64,000 nt of DNA, from contig NZ_JAPCWE010000003.1 in the NCBI RefSeq assembly GCF_025943985.1, positions 124,001-188,000 on the forward strand, read 5' to 3'. Positions 35,526 through 51,250 of this stretch are shown piece by piece; the first letter of the stretch is position 1, and each line of letters opens with the position of its first letter. This stretch comes from Anaerorudis cellulosivorans. GTDB taxonomy: Bacteria > Bacteroidota > Bacteroidia > Bacteroidales > Dysgonomonadaceae. The notes under the pieces were generated by a model. It searched no databases and was not told where the DNA came from. It saw only the letters and a list, made by a program, of their open reading frames with translations. Position numbers and translations under genes: made by a program.

Positions 35526-35745
35526 TAATTAAGTGAAAGATTTGCTACCTAAATACTGCCTTTTTGATTGGTCGGATTAGGGAACAGAAACAGCCTGAAT
35601 AAAGATAATCATCTCAAAGAGCGCTTGTTTTTCTTAAAACGTCTTTCAAAAATAACCCTTTTTTTACACTAACGGTGAAAATACGGGTTTTGAATACAAA
35701 ATTGGAGTTTGTTTCCTGTTGGCTCCATATTTTATATCACTTAAA

Positions 35746-35789
35746 ATAACTCTGTTACAAGTAATTTTACACTTAAATAACAGAGTTAT
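35746..35789 (+). promoter_or_regulatory. Hairpin covering the integrase 1 start codon
   Basis: ATAACTCTGTTA (35746-35757) is perfectly complementary to TAACAGAGTTAT (35778-35789), whose last two bases are the first two of the ATG start codon at 35788. Inside, AAGT (35759-35762) can pair with ACTT (35771-35774). In RNA this would bury the start codon; in DNA it is a 12-bp-arm inverted repeat that could be bound by the integrase or a regulator. Confidence 0.6.
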
Positions 35790-37008
35790 GACAAAGGAAG
35801 TAAAGGTGTCATTCTACCTCAAAAGAAATGAAACAAAAAAGGACGGCAAAAGCCCTGTAATGGCAAGGCTTTCGATTGGAAAATTCTCCGAAACCATCTT
35901 TAGTGCAAAAATGGCTGTTCCGGCAGACTTATGGGCATCCGGTCGCGCCACAGGGAAAAGCCATACGGCAAACGAGATTAACCGACAGCTGGACGAAATC
36001 AGGGCATCTGCCCTGTCGCATTACCGTGAGTTGTCAGCGGTAAGGGAGAATGTAACAGCCGAAGATGTAAAGAATCTCTTGCTGGGCATGGCATCCGGGC
36101 AGGAAACACTATTATCCTATTTCCGCACCCATAACGAAAATTTCGACAAGCGTATCGGTGTAAACCGCAAAGAAGGCTCGGAAAAAGGATACTGGCTTGC
36201 ACTTAATCACCTCACGAAGTTCCTGAAAGAAAAGTATAAACTTTCAGATATTCCTTTCTCAGCGCTGGACAGGTCGTTTATTGATAAATTCGACCTTTAT
36301 CTAAAGATTGACCGCCGGCTTGCACCGGGTACGATTGTATTATATACCACCCGATTGGGTACTATTATCGGGGATGCCATAACCGAGGGAATCATAACCA
36401 AAAATCCTTTTGTCGGTTATGAGCCGGAACGCCCTGAGCGGTATCAAAAGTATCTTACCCGAAAGGAACTGAATAAGTTAATGACAACTCCGCTTAATAC
36501 CTCAAAGCAATACCTTATCCGCGATTTATTCCTCTTTTCCTGTTATACCGGCATCCCGTACTGCGATATGTGCAAATTAACGAATGAAGATGTTTCTGTT
36601 GCCGAAGATGATGTAGTCTGGATAAAAACATTCCGTGAGAAAACTGGAATAGACTACGAGATACCCATGCTTGAACTCCCTTTGCAAATTCTTGAACGCT
36701 ATCGGGGAACGGTATCTGATGAACGGCTCTTGCCGATGTATCCAAACGGAGAGTTGAACAGGGAATTAAAAAAGATCGCCCGCATTTGTGGTATCACCCG
36801 GCGACTGACCTGGCATTGCGGCCGCCATACCTATGCGACCGAAATTACGCTCTCACAGGGTGTTCCCATCGAAACGGTAAGCCGGATGCTCGGACACAGC
36901 CAGATTGCGACGACACAAATTTATGCGAAAATCACCAACGATAAGATTGATGAGGATATGAAAGCGTTGGAAAAACGTATCGCAGGGAAATTCAAATTTG
37001 CTATTTAA
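35788..37008 (+). CDS. Tyrosine recombinase 1 (ICE integrase)
   Basis: 406 aa from the ATG at 35788 (MTKEVKVSFYLKRNETKK). A more upstream in-frame ATG at 35719 would start before the inverted repeat and is less likely. Arm-binding domain (about 1-90), SAM-like core-binding domain (about 100-195), catalytic domain (about 210-400). Catalytic residues: HCGRHTYA (H-x-x-R), LGHSQIATTQIY (H and nucleophile Tyr). The first Arg is not at its normal place (SCYTGIPYCDM), as reported for CTnDOT IntDOT. Adjacent to a second integrase 21 nt downstream. Confidence 0.88.
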   Translation: MTKEVKVSFYLKRNETKKDGKSPVMARLSIGKFSETIFSAKMAVPADLWASGRATGKSHTANEINRQLDEIRASALSHYRELSAVRENVTAEDVKNLLLGMASGQETLLSYFRTHNENFDKRIGVNRKEGSEKGYWLALNHLTKFLKEKYKLSDIPFSALDRSFIDKFDLYLKIDRRLAPGTIVLYTTRLGTIIGDAITEGIITKNPFVGYEPERPERYQKYLTRKELNKLMTTPLNTSKQYLIRDLFLFSCYTGIPYCDMCKLTNEDVSVAEDDVVWIKTFREKTGIDYEIPMLELPLQILERYRGTVSDERLLPMYPNGELNRELKKIARICGITRRLTWHCGRHTYATEITLSQGVPIETVSRMLGHSQIATTQIYAKITNDKIDEDMKALEKRIAGKFKFAI

Positions 37009-37029
37009 TCACGTTAATACATTTCAGTT

Positions 37030-38373
37030 ATGGAAACAAAAAATAAAGACGACAAGAAAGAAAAACGACGCAGCACATTTGCTATTCTGTTTTATATCAA
37101 CCGCACTAAAATCCGCAAAGACGGTATGTGCCAGCTATTGTGCAATATCAGTATTGATGCCGAATCCCAGCAGGTGGGAACGAAAGTTTCTGTTGATCCG
37201 TCCCTTTGGGATTCATCGACAGGACGTGCCGCAGGACGTAGCCGGAACGCCTTTCAGGTAAACCAGGCGATTGACCTGCTTACAGTACGCATCAAGAAGC
37301 ATCATAAGGAAATAAAGGAAAGTCTGGGTTTTGTTACGGCTGAACTCGTAAAGAATGCCCTGAAAGGCATCGCACAAAAGCCTCTTACGTTGATGCAACT
37401 TTTTAAGGAACACAATGACGAGTTTGAAAAACGGGTTGGTATAGACCGCAAAAAAGAGGCGCACGCTCAGTATGGGGTAACTTACAATCATCTTCTGGCG
37501 TTTATCCGTAAAAAGTATGATACCGATGACGTAACGCTCCGCAGTCTTGACCTTCGTTTCTACGAAGATTTCGACCTCTTTTTAAGGACAGACAAAGGGT
37601 TACAGCAAAAAACGGTACATCAACATCTGTATAATTTCAAGAAAATAACCAAACGGGCATTCAATCAGGGAACGCTCCGGCGCGACCCTTATATGAAACT
37701 GTTCCCAGAATTGCCGCCGCTAAAGAGCCGCCATTTGAAACTGGAAGATTTGGAGAAGTTGATGCAGTGCCAGCTCGACAAACCTAATTTGTGTCGTGCC
37801 CGTGACCTGTTCGTTTTTTCTACTTTCACCGGATTGTGTCATGCCGACCTAACAAAGCTATCCGACGAACATATAGAACAGACCGAAGACGGTAGCCTAT
37901 GGATTCATATGAAAAGACAGAAAACCGGGACGGAATTTAATGTGCGACTGTTGGAAATACCCCTGAAAATTATGGAGAAATACCGCCCGGAGAAAAAAGA
38001 TAAACATATATTTCAGGTTTACGGACGTGGTTATATGGGAAAACTTCTCCGTGAGATTGCGAAGAAATGCGCTATCGGGCATATCTCGTTCCATACAGCC
38101 CGCCATAATTTCGGGACGCATATTACACTCTCACAGGGTGTCCCTATTGAAACCGTAAGCCGGATGATGGGACATAAAAATATCGCTACCACGCAGATAT
38201 ATGCCAAAGTAACCGACAAGAAAGTAGATGAAGATATGAAACGGCTCAGAACACGTGTGGCATCCAAATCGAATAAAGTTACTTTGTATGAAGATGAATC
38301 GCTCCGTTCGGCTATCCGTTATCCCCAAAAAAGGAATAAAAACAAGAATGTTCAACAATCAAACAACCAATAA
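37030..38373 (+). CDS. Tyrosine recombinase 2 (ICE integrase)
   Basis: 447 aa. Same domain order as the gene upstream: a lysine-rich N-terminus (METKNKDDKKEKRRST), arm-binding domain, SAM-like domain (about 125-215) and catalytic domain with HTARHNFGTHI, MGHKNIATTQIYAKV and the Tyr nucleophile. The first-Arg position reads TFTGLCHADL, again without Arg. The segment QGVPIETVSRMMGH is nearly identical to that of integrase 1, so the two are paralogues. It overlaps nothing; 1 nt separates it from the next start. Confidence 0.88.
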   Translation: METKNKDDKKEKRRSTFAILFYINRTKIRKDGMCQLLCNISIDAESQQVGTKVSVDPSLWDSSTGRAAGRSRNAFQVNQAIDLLTVRIKKHHKEIKESLGFVTAELVKNALKGIAQKPLTLMQLFKEHNDEFEKRVGIDRKKEAHAQYGVTYNHLLAFIRKKYDTDDVTLRSLDLRFYEDFDLFLRTDKGLQQKTVHQHLYNFKKITKRAFNQGTLRRDPYMKLFPELPPLKSRHLKLEDLEKLMQCQLDKPNLCRARDLFVFSTFTGLCHADLTKLSDEHIEQTEDGSLWIHMKRQKTGTEFNVRLLEIPLKIMEKYRPEKKDKHIFQVYGRGYMGKLLREIAKKCAIGHISFHTARHNFGTHITLSQGVPIETVSRMMGHKNIATTQIYAKVTDKKVDEDMKRLRTRVASKSNKVTLYEDESLRSAIRYPQKRNKNKNVQQSNNQ

Positions 38374-43547: not shown

Positions 43548-43611
43548 CACAAGCGGGCGGTTTTTCCGCCCGTTACTATTCTTATGAGATTTCCAAATTA
43601 TTTTGAAGAAA

Positions 43612-43655
43612 ATATTAAAACTTGCGAAGAATTAATTCTTCGCAAGTTTTAATAT
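43612..43655. terminator. 22-bp perfect palindrome, bidirectional terminator at the CDF gene end
   Basis: A perfect 44-nt palindrome (22-bp arms) whose centre is AATT at 43632-43635. It covers the last codons and TAA stop of the minus-strand CDF-like gene and continues past it. The minus-strand exit is T-rich; it also follows the small plus-strand gene. So the coding end and the terminator share bases. Confidence 0.7.
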
Positions 43656-44429
43656 CCTTATTGCCCCTCTGATAACAATAAGAAAGACGATACTACCGAT
43701 AATAAGGTCTGGTATCTGATTATTTAATTGCCATACCAAGAATCCTGCAAGAATTACCCCTGCATTTATAATCACATCATTAGATGAAAAAATGATACTT
43801 GCCTGTATATGGGCATCTTTGCTTTTTGTCCTTTGAAGTAAAAGCAAACAAATGACATTGGCAATCAAAGCAAGTATGGATACACCTATCATCGTTTGAA
43901 AGACAGGCATTTCTTCTGCACCTGTAAACCGCCTGATTACCTCTATAAAACCGATTGCAGCCAAAAATATCTGGAAATATCCGCAAATCATGGCAACCCG
44001 CTTTTTACGGCTTACGGCTGCACCTACCGCAAACAAGCTTAATCCATATACAAAAGCATCGGCAAGCATATCAAGACTATCCGCAACCAATCCCATTGAT
44101 TTGGATATGATACCCGTTGACATTTCAATCAGGAAAAAACCGAAGTTAATAGCCAACACAATCCAAAGGACTTTACGCTGTTTACTATCTTCCTCTGCCT
44201 TAAATTCGCCTGTCATTTCAGCACTTTCAATAAAGCGTGAACCGAGATTCAAGGTAGCAAGCTGTTGTTCGATTATTTGATAGTCGCCTGTATGGTAAAC
44301 AGTCAATACCCTGCCTTTCAGGTCAAATTCCTGTTTGGCAATACCCTCTACGTTTTGAAGTTTCATCCGAATGAGGTTTTCCTCACTCGGACAATCCATT
44401 TGTTCAATTTTAAAAATTGATTTATTCAT
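43632..44429 (-). CDS. CDF-like cation transporter with N-terminal HMA-like domain
   Basis: 265 aa. Residues about 1-75 look like a ferredoxin-like heavy-metal domain in which the usual CxxC loop reads MDCPSEE (one Cys left). Residues about 88-262 are five to six TM segments with SLDMLADAFVYGLSL, the CDF metal-site region, and SSNDVIINAG in a later helix. The cytoplasmic C-terminal domain of larger CDF proteins is absent. It begins 1 nt from the stop of the TonB receptor and is co-transcribed with it. Metal specificity unknown (zinc, cobalt or similar). Confidence 0.7.
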   Translation of the reverse strand: MNKSIFKIEQMDCPSEENLIRMKLQNVEGIAKQEFDLKGRVLTVYHTGDYQIIEQQLATLNLGSRFIESAEMTGEFKAEEDSKQRKVLWIVLAINFGFFLIEMSTGIISKSMGLVADSLDMLADAFVYGLSLFAVGAAVSRKKRVAMICGYFQIFLAAIGFIEVIRRFTGAEEMPVFQTMIGVSILALIANVICLLLLQRTKSKDAHIQASIIFSSNDVIINAGVILAGFLVWQLNNQIPDLIIGSIVFLIVIRGAIRILKLAKN

Positions 44430-44430
44430 T

Positions 44431-46608
44431 TTACAATTTAAATATTATCCCGGCATTCAGAACAAAACCGTCCAATGGTGCGTAAATATCCCGGAATTCG
44501 GGCTTAGTCATCGAACCTGTATGAATGGTGTCGAACCTTGTCTGCCGTCTGTCGGTAAAGTTCTCAAAGTTAGCATATATTGAGAATCTTTCCCAAATCC
44601 GTTGCATCATTAATCCGCAGATAAGGTAATCTTTTCCCTTTTTTCCGTCATTCAAGTTTTGTTTTCCTGTATAGTAGGCTTCTAATCCGATTTTCCATTT
44701 ATCTTCCACCTCATACATTAATACAGAATTGATTTTATGTTTCGGTGTAAGGGTTTTCTGATAGCTTCTGCCGTCTTCCTTAACTTTAGCATCCGTATAG
44801 GTATATCCGAGAAATAAACCAAAGTCCTTATATTTTATTTTCATATTGGTTTCAGCCCCTTTGCTGTCCACATGACCGTCTATGTTGTTAAACTGCCAAC
44901 GGTTATTATCCGCAGCTTGCAGTTCAAGCGGATTTTTCAGGCAAGTATAAAAGAATAACTGGTTTATACTTAAATATACTTGGTCGTCAAACAAACCTGT
45001 TTTATAAGTGAAATCCACATTTGCCCCGTAGCTTCTTTCCAGTTTGTTATTATCATCATCTATCGGCAAGACATTCTGAAACTGTATGCGTTCGCTATCT
45101 TCCGAAAAAATGGTAGGTGCTTTATATCCGAATCCGCCACCTACACGGGATGAAAATTTATCCGTTATTTTGAAATGTGACGATATACGGGGCAGTACTG
45201 CAAAACCGTAATCGGTAACATAGTCGGTACGCAATCCGGTTTCAAGGTTCATCCAGTCCGTTATTTTCGTATTGTTTTGTACAAATAAGCCTAAAGTAGT
45301 CATATTGTAGTCTCGCAAAGGAAAATCGGTCAGTTTCCTTTCGGTAAATTTATCCGTCCATATATTTGCACCGGCTACCCATTCTGTCTTTTCTTTCGTA
45401 TGTATATAGGATACTTCCGAGAAAGACGATAGCTGCTCTCCGTCAAATTTAAAATCGGGAATCTCAATCTTACGGCTGAAATAGGTTACACTGTTTTTTA
45501 CATTCAATCTGTTTTGTTTATCAAAACGGTGTTCAAATGTAAGTTGGCTTGAATGCCTCTGTGTCTTGTTTCTTTCAAAATAAGAATGTTCTTCATCCCC
45601 TTTATCTTTTAAATATCCCATATCACCACCTAAACGGGTTTCTATCATGGAGTTTATACCGAAATTTAAGTCTGTATTTTCAGACAGGTATAAGAATAGT
45701 TTTGGATTCAATACAAACCTATCGAATTTTGGTATTGCTGTAAAGCCTACATCTGACGGGTCATAAGCCCAGTTACGGTTATACGATGCAAATACGGTAG
45801 TACCTACTTTATTGAATTTCTGACCGAAAAAGCTGTTTACATCAAGTCCTTTGCCTGTTGTCCCGTTCAGGTGTATTGAAAAATCCCTTTCTTTTTCAGG
45901 TGTTTTCGATATAAGGTTTACCAAACCCGCAATCGCACCGCCACCGTATAAGGTAGAAGAAGAACCTTTTATAATTTCAACCTGCTTTAAATCGAGAGGC
46001 GGTGTCTGTAATAAGCCTAATCCGCTTGCTGCACCCGAAAATACAGGAAAACCGTCTTTTAATATTTGGGTGTATCTACCGTCCAAGCCCTGAATACGGA
46101 TAGATGAATTACCCGATATGGCAGATGTTTGTTGCGTCATAATACCCGTGCTTTCATTCAGAAGCATACGGATATCTCCGGGTTTCATAACCCCTTTTTC
46201 GCCTAATTCTTCGGCATTTATAAATTCAATGCGTGTAGGAATATCTTTAAAAGTACGTGTTCCCCTTGTCGAAGAAACAACTATTTCCTGCAATGTTTCT
46301 TCGTCCGCTTCAACCCTGATAACAATAACTTCATCCGAAGCCAAAGGGAATGTAAACTCTTTGATGGTTTTTTCATATCCCACATAAGTAATTTCAAACT
46401 TATGTTTTCCATCAGGAATATTGGAGAGAACCGCCAAACCTTCGGTATCGGAAGATGTACCGTTCGTTGTGTTTTGTAGCACAATATTAGCACCTATTAA
46501 TATCTCTTTGCTATCACAATCTATTAATTTGACTCTAAGTGTGTTTTGTGCGAAAATATTGGAAAAGCTGAATGCTAAAAATAACATCAGTATAATTTTT
46601 GTTTTCAT
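44431..46608 (-). CDS. TonB-dependent outer-membrane receptor (metal module)
   Basis: 725 aa with a signal peptide (about 1-20, SNIFAQ). A carboxypeptidase-regulatory-like domain (about 22-105) precedes the plug (about 110-240: IRIQGLDGRYTQILKDGFPV and GSSSTLYGGGAIAGLVNLIS). The 22-strand barrel follows, ending LNAGIIFKL with C-terminal hydrophobic residue. It forms an operon with the CDF-like gene (1-nt spacing) and is preceded by a Cys-rich secreted protein, so its ligand is probably a metal or metal complex. Confidence 0.85.
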   Translation of the reverse strand: MKTKIILMLFLAFSFSNIFAQNTLRVKLIDCDSKEILIGANIVLQNTTNGTSSDTEGLAVLSNIPDGKHKFEITYVGYEKTIKEFTFPLASDEVIVIRVEADEETLQEIVVSSTRGTRTFKDIPTRIEFINAEELGEKGVMKPGDIRMLLNESTGIMTQQTSAISGNSSIRIQGLDGRYTQILKDGFPVFSGAASGLGLLQTPPLDLKQVEIIKGSSSTLYGGGAIAGLVNLISKTPEKERDFSIHLNGTTGKGLDVNSFFGQKFNKVGTTVFASYNRNWAYDPSDVGFTAIPKFDRFVLNPKLFLYLSENTDLNFGINSMIETRLGGDMGYLKDKGDEEHSYFERNKTQRHSSQLTFEHRFDKQNRLNVKNSVTYFSRKIEIPDFKFDGEQLSSFSEVSYIHTKEKTEWVAGANIWTDKFTERKLTDFPLRDYNMTTLGLFVQNNTKITDWMNLETGLRTDYVTDYGFAVLPRISSHFKITDKFSSRVGGGFGYKAPTIFSEDSERIQFQNVLPIDDDNNKLERSYGANVDFTYKTGLFDDQVYLSINQLFFYTCLKNPLELQAADNNRWQFNNIDGHVDSKGAETNMKIKYKDFGLFLGYTYTDAKVKEDGRSYQKTLTPKHKINSVLMYEVEDKWKIGLEAYYTGKQNLNDGKKGKDYLICGLMMQRIWERFSIYANFENFTDRRQTRFDTIHTGSMTKPEFRDIYAPLDGFVLNAGIIFKL

Positions 46609-46728
46609 TTTTATTCTTCTTTTTAATCTTCAATTTGAAATGATATAGGAGTTACGATACTACAAATAATGTATTATCGCAAAAAACGCAGGGCATATTC
46701 TAAATGTCCTGTAAAATTAAAAGTTGAT

Positions 46729-47043
46729 TTATGCTTTTGGCGGTTGCCAGATTGAAGATTTAAAATCAGGAAGATTATTTCTTAATATATATTCTGATTC
46801 GCAATCAGATGTTGAGCCTAAAGTTATAACTATTGGATTATAAAAACGAGCTTCCGGGAATCCGTAACAAGTATTACAATGTAGAAAAGGAGAACAGCAA
46901 CTATTATCGGTGCAATCATCACAACTATTGCCTATATCATTGCTTATTTCAGCATATATAGATAAACATTTATCCTCTAAACAACAAGGCATTACTGATA
47001 GCAGTAATACATATATGGATAATATGAGGGATAAATATTTCAT
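46729..47043 (-). CDS. Cys-rich secreted small protein (DUF6660-like)
   Basis: 104 aa. Signal-like N-terminus (MKYLSLILSIYVLLLSVMP) then CCLEDKC, SCDDCTDNSCCSPFLHC and NTCYGFPE: about 13 cysteines in total. Likely a periplasmic metal-binding protein matching the neighbouring TonB/CDF genes; DUF6660 is my best recall for the family. A -7-like TACCTTTG (47048-47055) lies 4 nt from the start codon, so transcription may be leaderless; the IS110 insertion lies just upstream and may have replaced its -33 box. Confidence 0.6.
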   Translation of the reverse strand: MKYLSLILSIYVLLLSVMPCCLEDKCLSIYAEISNDIGNSCDDCTDNSCCSPFLHCNTCYGFPEARFYNPIVITLGSTSDCESEYILRNNLPDFKSSIWQPPKA

Positions 47044-47112
47044 GTGGCAAAGGTAAGAAAATCATATTAACAAATAGTCAGGAATTTAATATTTTTATAA
47101 TCAGACACCACG

Positions 47113-48129
47113 TTACTGATTGGAATATTGATTATTATAATTAAATATGTAATGATTGTCATTCTTTATTACAGCAAACATCCGAGCTACAAGCTTAGCT
47201 CTGATAGCATTTAATACCGACATTTTATTTTTGCCTTCGCCAACTTTTCTATCGTAGTACGCCCTTAATCCACTATTTTTATTTTGAATAGCAGATAAGG
47301 CAGCTAAATGAAGTAGAGATTTTATACTCTTATTTGCTCTTTGGGAAACCCGATTTTTAGAGAACTGACTACTTCCTGATGAGTAACTAAATGGCGCAAC
47401 ACCCGCATGACAACAAAATTTGCGACTATCGGTAAATCGCGTAAAGGCTTGTGTTTCCAATATCATTTTTAAAGAAGTCTTTTTTCCTATTCCTTCAATA
47501 CTCAATAATAATTTCATCTGATGAGACAACAAAGCATCTTTTGCTGCAATACTCTCAATTTCCGCTTCAATATTAGATATTGCTTTATCCAATTCTTTAA
47601 TAAGCAGGGATAATCTCTTTAACTTCAACTTATAGACATAATCAGGCATATATTCCTTTTGATCTGATAATTGAGCTTGGTATTTGGCTCTATCAACACA
47701 TAGCATATTTAATTCTGTTGATAATAGCTTTATTGATTCTATACTTATTGTCGGGTGATTATATATTTTAAGTTTATCTACATAACGATACGCATACAAA
47801 GCGATTCGTTTAGCATCTACCGGATCATTTTTCCCTCGTTGTAATCCGGAACTGTATTTTATTTGGGTAGGGTCTTCTAACCAAAGTTTATAGTTTCCAA
47901 CTTGACAAGAGATTGCTAAAGGATAAATATATAATCCTGTAAATTCAGCACATATTACTATTTGTTCCGCATCTATATTTTGTTCCACACAAATTATAGA
48001 TAAATAGTTTTCGATACTCTTTTGATGATTTGGAATAACATCTTGTTTGACCACAGAGCCATTCTTCAACACACAACAATCCAAGTTTTTCTTACTCACA
48101 TCAATTCCAATAAAATAAGAGTCTTTCAT
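47113..48129 (-). CDS. IS110-family transposase
   Basis: 338 aa DEDD/RuvC-like recombinase. N-terminal catalytic residues: D10 in FIGIDVSKK, E in VICAEFTGLY (about 62), and DPVDAKRIALYAYRY (two aspartates, about 103-106). The C-terminal Transposase_20 domain has LLLSIEGIGKKTSLK and CCHAGVAPFSYSSGSSQF, with the reactive serine region SYSSGS. Inserted between the TrlF-like gene and the metal module of the ICE. No internal frameshift, so it may be active. Confidence 0.9.
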   Translation of the reverse strand: MKDSYFIGIDVSKKNLDCCVLKNGSVVKQDVIPNHQKSIENYLSIICVEQNIDAEQIVICAEFTGLYIYPLAISCQVGNYKLWLEDPTQIKYSSGLQRGKNDPVDAKRIALYAYRYVDKLKIYNHPTISIESIKLLSTELNMLCVDRAKYQAQLSDQKEYMPDYVYKLKLKRLSLLIKELDKAISNIEAEIESIAAKDALLSHQMKLLLSIEGIGKKTSLKMILETQAFTRFTDSRKFCCHAGVAPFSYSSGSSQFSKNRVSQRANKSIKSLLHLAALSAIQNKNSGLRAYYDRKVGEGKNKMSVLNAIRAKLVARMFAVIKNDNHYIFNYNNQYSNQ

Positions 48130-48233
48130 GATAAAGTGATTTAATGATTTATAATTTGGAAAGGCACTTGAATATATCCTAAAAACCTTAAATATCTTTC
48201 AGATTAAATTCTTATATAGGTCTAATCCAAGAC

Positions 48234-48420
48234 AAATAACAAGTTCGTAATAGTAACATAAGTTATTCCTACTTTCCATGTTGATTTACTTGTTATTTTC
48301 CTTTCTTTTTAATTAATAACGTAAATCATTAAATGTTCTTGAAATTAAATGAATAAAATGAGTTCCAAATAGTAACATAGACTTTACATTTCTCTTTTTC
48401 CATATGGTTCACTCATTATA
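48234..48420 (-). ncRNA. Candidate IS110 bridge RNA: two similar stem-loops
   Basis: Stem-loop I: AAATAACAAGT (48234-48244) with 48288-48298, 11 perfect bp, 43-nt loop. Stem-loop II: AATGAGT (48357-48363) with ACTCATT (48411-48417), 47-nt loop. The loops share AATAGTAACATA near one end and TTTCCAT near the other, with different residues around them. Two homologous loops upstream of an IS110 transposase match the target-binding and donor-binding loops of bridge RNAs. Transposase orientation suggests minus strand. RNA ends and guide assignments were not determined. Confidence 0.5.
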
Positions 48421-48503
48421 GTTTATAAAATAATTACAATGCAAACCTAAGGTTTTTCCATGAGCCAGAGAGTGAGCGGGAGAAAAAGTAACAAAAAGCC
48501 ACA

Positions 48504-51152
48504 TTAAATGCCATAAATGGTTTGTCTTTGTTTAAACGCATTTTTGCCACCTTCTAAAATATCACAACACATTTCCCTTGTTTCTTTTCTATCAATTGAC
48601 CCCGCACTCATCACGTGGGACTTTATGCTTGTGCTTTTTAATGGGATTATTAGTTCGGCATCTCCTAATACAGCAATGTTTGGATTATGAGTAACAATTA
48701 TCACTTGCCTGGCTTCTTTAATTTTTCGCAAATTCATTACGATTGTTTTGAAAATGAACTCGCTATCTAAGTTATCTTCAGGCTGGTCGATAATTAGAGG
48801 TTTATCACTTTTTGATAACAGCAAAATACCCAGCAATATAGACTGCTGTTGTCCCAATGATAATTGTGAGATTGATTTTGTTTGCCTTTGTTGAGTCCCA
48901 TGTTCATCTGCATACATTTTAGTCACAGTTATACTCGGTCTATCTTCAAACTCAAGAGCTTCAAATTCTTCATAGACATAATCTTTCATCACTTTTTCAA
49001 TTATGCTGCATATTTCCAGATCGGAAAGAAGTCGATTGCCATTGGTATCAGTAATTAATTTTAATCTTGCTTCATCATTTCTTTTGCATATACCAACAAA
49101 CTCTAAAGGGGATAAGTTGAGCGAAATGATGAATGCTCTGGGAACCTGAGAGGTTCTCCAGTCCATAACATTTTTTAGTAGTTTTTCAAATTCATCTGAA
49201 TATTTCCCCTCTGAATATTTAACGGTGATAAACAGACCGTCAATCGTATTTTTAAGATTATCATTTATTGTATTTGCGAACTCTCGTCTATGATAATATA
49301 TTTTATTTTTAACATCGGTTCTTTCTGTTATTAGTGATTTGCGAGCAGCCTCCAATTCTTTCAATAACTTCTGGCTATTTTCTAATTTCTGAACCCTTGT
49401 TGTTAAGTCTATGATGTCTTTTGAAATTTGATTTATCTTGCCTAAGTCAAATGGAATCCCTTGTGCTTCAAGAGCAGATTTCTTCTTGTCAATTTCGTCC
49501 TGTATTGTTTTTTCTTCCTTTTGCCAATTAGCAAGTTCAATTTTCAGTTCTTCTATTTTCTGATTTAGAGAAATATTCAATTCTCCTGACTTTTCTGAGA
49601 CTATCTTCGAGAAATCCGAAACAATTTCTTTTACCTTTTTGAAGTAATTCTTCCCTACAACGATTTCGTCGTCAGATAATTTTTCAAAATTTTTAAATGT
49701 AGTGTCATCTTTGAATATCTCTCGATACGTTTTAATAAGGGCGTTCAAGTCATCAACTAAACCTTTTCGTAATTGCCTTTCTCGTATTAATGCTGTTTGG
49801 TATTTTACCAGTTCCCCAGCTTTCTCTTTTTCAAGATTTGCTAATTTTTTTTGTTCGTTTAATAATGCCTTTTTTGTGTCAGGAAGACTTAGTAATTCAA
49901 GTCTCAATTTTCTTGCTTCACTTTGATTTTCACGTAAATTTACGACGATTTCATCATCTTGGCTCTTTAGTGAGTCTAAATCCAAGAATGAATCTAAAAA
50001 ATTAACCAAAATAATAGGATTAGCATCACTATGTTGTAATGTTTCGGCGGTATCACCTTGTCCATAACTTTCAACATCAATTTTTGAAATGCCATTAATC
50101 GGATCTGTTACATTTAGATTCTCCGCAGACTTTTCTCGTTTGAACTCTAACACCTGTCCCGCTTCATCTTCATACGTCAAAGAAATATCTTGCGGCCACA
50201 CGTCAGAGTCTACTACTCTTGCATTTGATTTGTTTCCAGAACATTCTCTAATAGCCTCTAATAGTGTAGATTTTCCAGCACCTCTACCTCCAATAATACA
50301 GGTTAAGTTCGAACTTAGGTCTATTCTCACTTTGTCCAATAACCCACCTTCTATACTAATAGATTTGATAACAGGTCTTTGTTCTGGGATAAAATCTTCA
50401 AGCCTAATTCTTGACTCATTACTAATAAGTGCAATTTTGAAAGAATGAAAGTTTAGTTCATCTATTTTTATTCTTGTCAATTTCTTTCCTCCCTCGGCGT
50501 TAATACCAAGTCTATTAAGGTCATGTGCGTCAGATGATAGTAATTTGGCAAGATTATATGATTCGTTATAATCGCAGGCTTCCCTATGTAATCCAATAAG
50601 TCTTTTCCTTGAATCATCATCCGAATCAGTATATAGGTCAATATTCTCTTTTGTACATATTTCTAATCCCAATAAATTCTTATGTTTGAAAATTTCCTCC
50701 ATCGGAGGGCCAAATCGTCCAATTGTTTTTTCAAAACCTGATTCGAGTTCTATATGGGCAAGAACACCTATACCATTATGCTGTTGAGCAAAATCAAGAC
50801 ACTGCACAATGCCATTTTGGCAAGTTTTCTTATCTTGATTTATCGTTAGTTTTCCATGAAAGTTTCTTAAATCATTGAATGTGGGAAAATAAAGCAATAA
50901 GTGCCCTTGTGTTGTGCTAACTTCTATTCCAGGAATAACAAATATGTTTTTCCCCTCTGCATAAGTTATTGCAGTATTCGAGTTAAATATCTCATTATGA
51001 TCAGTTATACTTATTATCCCTAATCCTTTTTCTATTGCTGTATCCACAATTGCTTGTGGGGTCATATTTGTATCGGTCACATCATAAGACCCAAATTCAC
51101 CATAAGAGTGAATATGTAAATCTGCTCGTAAAAATTTAGCTCCTGTTGACAT
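48504..51152 (-). CDS. PHP-domain plus SMC/ABC-type ATPase (TrlF-like)
   Basis: 882 aa from the ATG at 51152. An in-frame ATG at 51227 lies upstream of the promoter in repeat R1 and is rejected. PHP phosphoesterase domain (about 1-260): RADLHIHSYGEFG, SITDHNEIF, GIEVSTTQGHLL and SSDAHDLNRLG. The ATPase begins about 285 with Walker A IGGRGAGKSTLLEAI, has a long coiled coil (about 400-620) and ends with signature SLGQQQS and Walker B PLIIDQPEDNLD, plus VTHNPNIAV. This is the TrlF-like, RecF/SMC-type layout seen in defence genes. Probably anti-phage or plasmid defence. Confidence 0.8.
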   Translation of the reverse strand: MSTGAKFLRADLHIHSYGEFGSYDVTDTNMTPQAIVDTAIEKGLGIISITDHNEIFNSNTAITYAEGKNIFVIPGIEVSTTQGHLLLYFPTFNDLRNFHGKLTINQDKKTCQNGIVQCLDFAQQHNGIGVLAHIELESGFEKTIGRFGPPMEEIFKHKNLLGLEICTKENIDLYTDSDDDSRKRLIGLHREACDYNESYNLAKLLSSDAHDLNRLGINAEGGKKLTRIKIDELNFHSFKIALISNESRIRLEDFIPEQRPVIKSISIEGGLLDKVRIDLSSNLTCIIGGRGAGKSTLLEAIRECSGNKSNARVVDSDVWPQDISLTYEDEAGQVLEFKREKSAENLNVTDPINGISKIDVESYGQGDTAETLQHSDANPIILVNFLDSFLDLDSLKSQDDEIVVNLRENQSEARKLRLELLSLPDTKKALLNEQKKLANLEKEKAGELVKYQTALIRERQLRKGLVDDLNALIKTYREIFKDDTTFKNFEKLSDDEIVVGKNYFKKVKEIVSDFSKIVSEKSGELNISLNQKIEELKIELANWQKEEKTIQDEIDKKKSALEAQGIPFDLGKINQISKDIIDLTTRVQKLENSQKLLKELEAARKSLITERTDVKNKIYYHRREFANTINDNLKNTIDGLFITVKYSEGKYSDEFEKLLKNVMDWRTSQVPRAFIISLNLSPLEFVGICKRNDEARLKLITDTNGNRLLSDLEICSIIEKVMKDYVYEEFEALEFEDRPSITVTKMYADEHGTQQRQTKSISQLSLGQQQSILLGILLLSKSDKPLIIDQPEDNLDSEFIFKTIVMNLRKIKEARQVIIVTHNPNIAVLGDAELIIPLKSTSIKSHVMSAGSIDRKETREMCCDILEGGKNAFKQRQTIYGI

Positions 51153-51172
51153 ATTGATATATTTTTCTGCTT

Positions 51173-51250
51173 GCAAAAATACCCATAAAAAAACACCTGA
51201 CAAAATTGCTTGACAGATGTTTTTCAATAAGTTATCAGACTATGCTTATT
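51173..51250 (-). repeat. 78-bp direct repeat R1: terminator plus promoter hinge
   Basis: About 83% identical over 78 bp to R2 (54790-54867). On the minus strand: a hairpin (51194-51219) with a T-run, then the -33 element TTTG (51201-51204) exactly 19 nt before the -7 element TATTTTTG (51174-51181), 20-odd nt before the TrlF-like start at 51152. So it ends the hypothetical gene upstream and starts the TrlF-like gene. Confidence 0.75.

Follow-up and report, generated by a model that had tools for sequence, protein, structure and literature searches.

A probable RNA-guided, cargo-carrying IS110-family transposon in Anaerorudis cellulosivorans

An IS110 recombinase gene in a 64,000-nt stretch of the Anaerorudis cellulosivorans genome (contig NZ_JAPCWE010000003.1, positions 124,001 to 188,000; in the following called the window) is preceded by similar stem-loops and followed by genes of other functions, among them metal-related ones. 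This arrangement raises the question of where the mobile unit ends and whether an RNA from its non-coding end directs it. From comparisons with related loci we conclude that positions 43579–48452 (minus strand) very probably constitute an RNA-guided, cargo-carrying IS110-family transposon. The sequences contain ends shared among relatives, uninterrupted sites, covarying stems and matches between guides and flanks.

The recombinase, the ends and the target site

The recombinase gene (47113–48129, minus strand) encodes a protein of 338 amino acids matching the family profile NF033542 at 155.6 bits (cut-off 140) and both PF01548 and PF02371 over cut-off. Aligned to 9t56/8wt6, it resembles the recombinases of ISCro4 (E 2.6e-25) and IS621 (E 1.3e-23) and its catalytic residues are conserved: D10, E62, D102, D105 and S251 correspond to D11, E60, D102, D105 and S241 of IS621, as given in the available part of PMC11208158. 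By family profile, DEDD motif and catalytic serine, the predicted protein belongs to the IS110 family. Relatives at 74–100% identity lie in records of Dysgonomonas, Parabacteroides, Bacteroides and one Bacteroidales metagenome-assembled genome. In a phylogenetic tree, the window groups with L036, L044, L045, L007, L046, L048 and L053 (support 100/99; loci carry our L numbers, genomes G numbers), in the following called the cargo clade. The sequence of L062 entered the tree in a wrong frame (12 stops), so that its placement is void. A search of plasmids gave six records at E ≤ 1e-40 and a search of phages none at E ≤ 1e-30.

Upstream of the gene, DNA similarity starts at window position 48500 in 11 loci (L033–L038, L040–L044). 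It takes in one arm of a target inverted repeat, followed by a variable stretch, and the element proper begins at CCTTAGG, preceded by CATGG and a run of A. The element starts in the same way in L046, L047, L048 and L053; the left ends of L007 and L045 are different or lost. In the window, the left end CCTTAGGTTTGCATTG lies at 48437–48452 (minus strand), and its motif was found in both cargo-carrying and compact relatives. Eight such compact relatives, 47–58% identical (L050, L052, L054, L055, L062, L063, L085 and L116), have the left end of the window and CATAAGAA-TA immediately behind the coding sequence (CDS). L051 has the variant right end ATTAGAA-TA, and other loci of this survey are without one or both ends.

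On the downstream side, homology among relatives continues past the recombinase gene. The right end of the window element, CATAAGAA followed by the core TA, is located at 43579–43586 (minus strand), 3.5 kb past the recombinase and behind the cargo genes, yielding a unit of 4.88 kb. The right end CTCATAAGAA-TA closes the 4.88 kb elements (window, L103 and L104) as well as elements of 8.66 kb (L109), 9.05 kb (L112) and 12.26 kb (L105, L106 and L108), with L103/L104 representing a single insertion and L105/L106/L108 another. It is also present in L113, where the left end was not located and the start position was set by hand. No right end was seen in L107, L110 and L111, where the stretch stops with the contig, or in L045. 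The far right end is documented for five of the eight cargo-clade members: the window, L036 (via L105), L044 (via L109), L048 (via L112) and L007 (via L113).

The element is bounded by the core dinucleotides AA (48453–48454) on the left and TA (43577–43578) on the right, and the junctions read CATGGAAA-AA-CCTTAGG and CATAAGAA-TA-GTAACGGGCGG. The left target CATGGAAA (48455–48462, minus strand) is present in uninterrupted sites, and the left arm of the target inverted repeat, GGCTTTTTGTTACTTTTTCT (48481–48500, minus strand), in occupied and uninterrupted ones. The right target GTAACGGGCGGAAAAACCGCCCG (43554–43576, minus strand) is contiguous with the left target in L139, which by eye is nearest to the right flank of the window. 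One search gave three uninterrupted sites (L092, L100 and L101). Using the right flank of the window, 20 loci were fetched, 15 of them with the motif (≤3 substitutions): 11 uninterrupted, including L123, which is the same place as L100, three occupied and one apparent scar. The uninterrupted sites resemble GGCTTTTTGTTACTTTTTCTCC...CTCATGGAAAAAGTAACGGGCGG; their right arm reads GTAAC in 7/11, GGAAC in 2/11 and GAAAC in 2/11, with matching left-arm changes by eye. In the survey of compact relatives, the left dinucleotide is TA, AA or CA and the right one TA in 11 of 12, L061 having CA; in the distant L117–L119 the dinucleotides are different or not clear. A pattern for the whole target repeat matched none of 393 genomes, which says little because the pattern was too strict; G005 (D. 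mossii) holds the near-miss site L092. A short target pattern matched none of 101 loci.

The apparent scar, L124, contains the target repeat without an element but with the final right-end bases CTCATAAGAATAGTAACGGGC and looks like the remnant of a lost copy.

A predicted bridge-type RNA in the left end

The first-pass annotation had proposed a candidate bridge RNA from two stem-loops upstream of the recombinase gene. Its core observations hold: an IS110 recombinase is associated with a predicted structured, bridge-type RNA in the long upstream non-coding end, and loop sequences match the flanks. Stem I consists of 11 perfect pairs (48234–48244 with 48288–48298) and stem II of 7 (48357–48363 with 48411–48417). 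The loops share AATAGTAACATA, found on the plus strand only at 48249 and 48368, and TTTCCAT at 48273 and 48397, a motif occurring 21 times in the window. Direct repeats within the 341 nt upstream of the gene are at most 12 nt long, a length reached by 51 of 2000 mononucleotide shuffles. The division into one donor and one target loop had to be revised, as both loops carry target-type guides (left CATGGAAA / ATGGAAAAA, right GTTAC-TA). The donor loop is a third stem-loop (48167–48231) which had been missed and whose guides match the element ends.

The predicted RNA core, comprising loop I and the donor loop, spans 48154–48316 on the minus strand (135.6 bits with R1, our covariance model of the alignment described below, which included the window row). 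Loop I (48234–48299, minus strand) is the putative target-binding loop with the left guide CATGGAAA and the right guide GTTAC-TA, and the donor-binding loop (48167–48231, minus strand) has the left donor guide ATAAGAAT and the right donor guide TTAAGG.

In an 18-row alignment (A1), 16 of 21 pairs of these two stem-loops change on both sides in a compensatory manner, namely 9/10 pairs of the basal stem of loop I and 7/11 pairs in the two helices of the donor loop. Paired cells make up 93.9%, compared to 74.8% in shuffled alignments (0/500 as high) and 26–47% in slid controls. The rows were gathered by searching for TATAAGAAT and TTAAGGT, allowing one mismatch, so that the choice of rows partly accounts for the conservation of the donor guides within A1. 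The covarying stems sit upstream of the CDS, which assigns the element to the IS110 rather than the IS1111 group.

Outside its alignment, R1 matched 12 of 34 sources at E ≤ 1e-5 on the recombinase strand (L045, L118, L119, L147, L150, L155–L158, L159, which has the sequence of L054, L160 and L161); many of the remaining 22 are incomplete or distant. L045, seemingly without a normal target loop and omitted from A1, nevertheless matched at 71 bits. Rfam gave no match at either threshold. Weak R1 matches (20–31 bits) lie directly upstream of more distant recombinases (L013, L015, L016 and L117), those of L013 and L015 scoring like loop II matches, and opposite-strand matches appear from E 0.035. 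The RNA family may extend to these more distant recombinases. In L117, the presumed donor guide ATAGAATG repeats after the CDS.

Guides correspond to flanks and ends

The left target guide matches the element's own flank with a mean run of 6.08 nt, compared to 3.69 nt for permuted pairs (p 5e-5, 13 elements); two controls in wrong orientation gave p 0.82 and 0.59. For the right target guide in fixed register, 44 of 55 positions match versus 22.6 permuted (p 1e-5, 11 elements), and an earlier form of this test, based on the longest shared run, gave p 0.0065. Close copies were removed, leaving 13 of 17 rows for the left and 11 of 14 for the right guide. A hold-out set supported the left guide (5.67 versus 3.77 permuted, p 8e-5, 9 elements). 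It used nine of ten rows, with L118 lacking a left end by motif; L155, L157 and L158 are likely near kin, as are L156 and L161.

Left donor guide and right end are identical in all 19 typed pairs (152/152 positions; the strings were entered by hand and checked for presence in the locus only, with L157 omitted). Over six end types the agreement is 48/48, which among 720 permutations only the identity reaches. The ends of L118 and L119 were located with the donor guide, those of L117 and L051 by eye, and those of L155, L157 and L158 by searching for the common right end with one mismatch allowed. The right donor guide, TTAAGG, agrees with CCTTA in the left end. With target-loop guides matching flanks and donor-loop guides matching ends, the right donor guide partially, the predicted RNA is of the bridge type. 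The first-pass annotation had suggested looking for empty sites, covariation over IS110 relatives and correspondence between loops and flanks; uninterrupted sites revealed the target, the stems covary as described, and the guides match their own flanks with several misses.

These matches suggest the following mechanism. The recombinase would be guided by a bridge RNA transcribed from the left end. Loop I and its extra copy, loop II, would pair with the target CATGGAAA-AA-GTAACGGG, one inverted-repeat arm in an island resembling an integrative and conjugative element (ICE). The third stem-loop would pair with CATAAGAA-TA-CCTTAG, the sequence formed where the two element ends meet in an excised circle. 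Recombination would then link the left part of the target to the left end and the right part of the target to the right end, such that the left junction retains the dinucleotide of the target (AA) and the right junction that of the donor (TA). We infer that the RNA is made and a circle arises, that recombination takes place in this way and that the cargo is moved along with it.

At L065, directly behind the recombinase gene, ATTAGAA-TA-CCTTAG resembles the right-end/left-end junction of a circle or a tandem copy. The left-end motif CCTTAGCTTTGCA occurs in tandem repeats at L051, L146 and L058.

A second target-type loop

Loop II (48357–48417, minus strand) is a second target-type loop with the left guide ATGGAAAAAG and the right guide GTTAC-TA, recovered as an R1 match to positions 20–83 (E 7e-4). 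Such second matches were obtained for the window, L053, L044 and L036 (E 0.0007–0.0016), those of L044 and L036 extending past the target loop; R1 finds none in L048, L046 and L007. Two clear loops are present in five of the eight clade members (window, L036, L044, L048 and L053). Loop II was seen in the cargo clade only and in none of the compact relatives. In the window, both loops would address one and the same site.

Loop II may be a decayed duplicate, the relic of a tandem or fused insertion, leaving loop I and the third loop as the working bridge RNA; we give this a chance slightly short of even. Loop I, rather than loop II, occupies the orthologous position beside the donor loop. Loop II folds weakly (z −1.0 against shuffles, compared to −3.1 for loop I), is degenerate in L046 and L047, cut in L007 and missing in L045, and its stem hardly varies by eye. 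The left flank also agrees better with loop I in L038 (9 versus 8), L046 (6 versus 4), L047 (5 versus 4) and L053 (9 versus 6). Speaking against decay, loop II is retained in the window, L036, L038, L044, L048 and L053. It is the better fit to the left flank in the window (9 versus 8) and L044 (9 versus 7), with ties in L036 and L048, and to the right flank in L048 (5/5 versus 4/5), with ties in the window, L036 and L044.

In the branch of L048 and L053 the two loops are not alike, and the values for L053 (9 versus 6) and L048 (5 versus 4) point to differing addresses of the two loops, in a suggestive manner only. One cargo transposon might then choose between two kinds of site through a single donor loop, which we regard as possible and rather doubtful.

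Cargo genes and the extent of the unit

Within the ends of the window element, the recombinase gene is followed by an open reading frame of 104 amino acids without a Pfam match (46729–47043), a gene for a TonB-dependent receptor (44431–46608; PF00593 and PF07715 over cut-off, all NCBIfam matches shown below it) and one for a cation-diffusion-facilitator (CDF) efflux protein with an HMA-like N-terminus (43632–44429; PF01545 over cut-off, HMA below, TIGR01297 just below), all on the minus strand. L105 has over cut-off an ArsR/SmtB regulator, arsenite methyltransferase, ACR3, ArsF, ArsG, ArsA and DUF302, and below the NCBIfam cut-offs an arsenate-reductase-like protein, a TonB receptor and a CDF protein. 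L109 carries ACR3, ArsF, ArsG and arsenite methyltransferase, with arsenate-reductase-like, CDF and Cu/Zn-efflux-like proteins below cut-off and a small protein behind the recombinase without a match at 1e-15. The cargo of L112, which includes a heavy-metal RND efflux system, comprises a CusA/CzcA transporter, an RND adaptor and, below cut-off, a heavy-metal-type response regulator and kinase; that of L113 comprises a YhdH-type oxidoreductase and a 107-amino acid protein without a match at 1e-20. The predicted cargo between the recombinase gene and the right end is exchangeable among relatives. The element is larger than expected because metal-related genes seem to be carried between the recombinase and the far end.

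Could a compact IS110 element instead lie beside unrelated metal genes, with the cargo outside the mobile unit? Compact relatives exist, and TTATAAAAATA at 47090–47100, directly after the recombinase gene, is two mismatches away from the right end. Because 269 of 2000 shuffles equal this match, it may be due to chance or go back to a compact right end that the element once had. From the end of the CDS to 43501, the sole match to TCATAAGAATA with ≤1 mismatch is at 43577–43587, and the same end closes cargo units differing in content and size. Furthermore, L102 carries the entire window element (99.6% identity over 4,962 bp, with a right end 5 bp shorter) but not its adjoining flanks, for which no similarity at E 1e-3 was detected in 555 bp on the left and 600 bp on the right (excluding 45 bp adjoining each element end). 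Among ten loci compared, left flanks are alike only within L103–L106 and L108. A compact unit is very improbable in view of these data. Since the far ends are shared and the sole right end with ≤1 mismatch is the distant one, we read the unit as an IS110 element with its cargo between the gene and the right end.

Still less tenable is the original model, with loop I as donor loop, loop II as target loop and an element end near 47071: it draws on two homologous loops differing at flanking residues, an 8-mer at 47071 and the weak right-end-like sequence at 47100, but loop I holds target guides in the target-loop position of compact relatives, the exact right end is at 43579 and the third loop matches both ends. 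Tried as a donor loop, loop I gave a weak resemblance to the true ends only, and the third loop matched better. A right end at 47071 was ruled out, as homology continues to 43579, 3.5 kb past the recombinase and beyond the cargo. The two flank matches of loop II reported earlier, CAAATAGT at 47071 and TTTTTCCAT at 48453, exist as described. The latter (48453–48461) includes the left target; the former is not at an element end and its orientation would be wrong for a right guide. Their location on one strand, then seen as a caveat, need not count against pairing because the guides of IS621 pair with different strands, the left ones with the bottom and the right ones with the top strand (available part of PMC11208160).

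Several observations, in addition to the sequence at 47090–47100, weigh against the cargo transposon as proposed. Left-guide runs are near or below chance in L059 (3), L054 (4) and L051 (4), and in the hold-out set in L158 (2) and L119 (4); the right guide matches 0/5 positions in L054 and 3/5 in L052. In L054 and L159 the element is flanked by CATAAGAA and CCTTTC, which together resemble a donor site, and the target guides mismatch the flanks; the misses of L054 may be explained by the resemblance of these flanks to the element ends themselves. The right donor guide pairs with only ~5–6 bases of the left end and has a mismatch in L085. The donor loop of the window folds no better than shuffles (z 0.05), nor does the whole upstream region (z −0.05 on the minus and −0.40 on the plus strand); it is the covariation over relatives, rather than folding energy, which is weak evidence, that carries the case for the RNA. 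A Bacteroides-type promoter pattern was absent in all six cargo-clade members searched and present in 3/10 compact ones. Finally, right flanks are related: the window is 68% identical to L103/L104 and 75% to L109, L102 is 93% identical to L109, L112 is ~80% identical to L102 and L109 over 72 bp, and farther out on the right the window matches L102 at 69% over 440 bp. These related flanks represent sites of one kind of island.

Relation to known systems

Like IS621 and ISCro4, the window element combines a DEDD-plus-serine recombinase with an RNA in the upstream end in which a target loop and a donor loop carry one left and one right guide each, placed about a core of two nucleotides. It differs from them in the core (NA in the target and TA in the donor, CT in theirs), in the extra target-type loop, in the absence of an Rfam match, and in the ~3.5 kb of cargo (2–11 kb in relatives) between the recombinase gene and the right end. 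Compact IS110 relatives share the ends and a two-loop RNA, with guides matching their own flanks in most cases, but their right end lies directly behind the CDS, they carry no cargo, and no second target loop was seen in them. Insertion into an extragenic inverted repeat is shared with insertion sequence (IS) elements in repetitive extragenic palindromes (available part of PMC1525189); here the repeat recurs beside island genes and the guides are readable from the RNA. SeekRNA-directed IS1111/IS110 elements with an added gene likewise contain cargo within their ends, and it was moved there (available part of PMC11187229). Their cargo was engineered; that of the window is natural and would be moved with the element.

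According to the available part of PMC11208160, the boundary search of that 2024 study started from 1,000 bp on either side of the CDS, and because of this limit it would probably miss elements with a right end 2–11 kb past the gene. With passenger genes inside their ends, the cargo-bearing units depart from the usual description of IS110 elements as minimal mobile elements. Among the papers that our searches listed, mostly without subscription papers and bioRxiv, we found none reporting that IS110 elements naturally carry cargo or that a target loop is doubled. IS117 of Streptomyces, an IS110 relative, may have extra open reading frames. If the units move, an RNA-guided recombinase would offer metal- and arsenic-related genes a natural means of transfer among Bacteroidales, with insertion at a site that recurs in ICE-like islands. 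The units would then also show that large payloads and a doubled target loop occur in nature.

Genomic neighborhood and further copies

Two tandem tyrosine recombinase genes (35719–38373, plus strand; matches below NCBIfam cut-offs) perhaps belong to the island carrying the element. Uninterrupted sites show the target to be an inverted repeat in an island, whose presumed ICE-like nature we derive from these two genes. On the other side, the neighboring gene (48504–51227, minus strand) encodes a TrlF-family PHP/AAA ATPase (NF045780, 556 bits, cut-off 350), with a match far under cut-off to the anti-phage protein Ppl.

L134 in G004 has the right end and the end of the CDF gene, with no recombinase match in that genome; this copy may have lost its recombinase. 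The source genome itself encodes a second, distant IS110-family recombinase (L001, G000:C1:102863-103297), for which model R1 gave no match at E ≤ 1.
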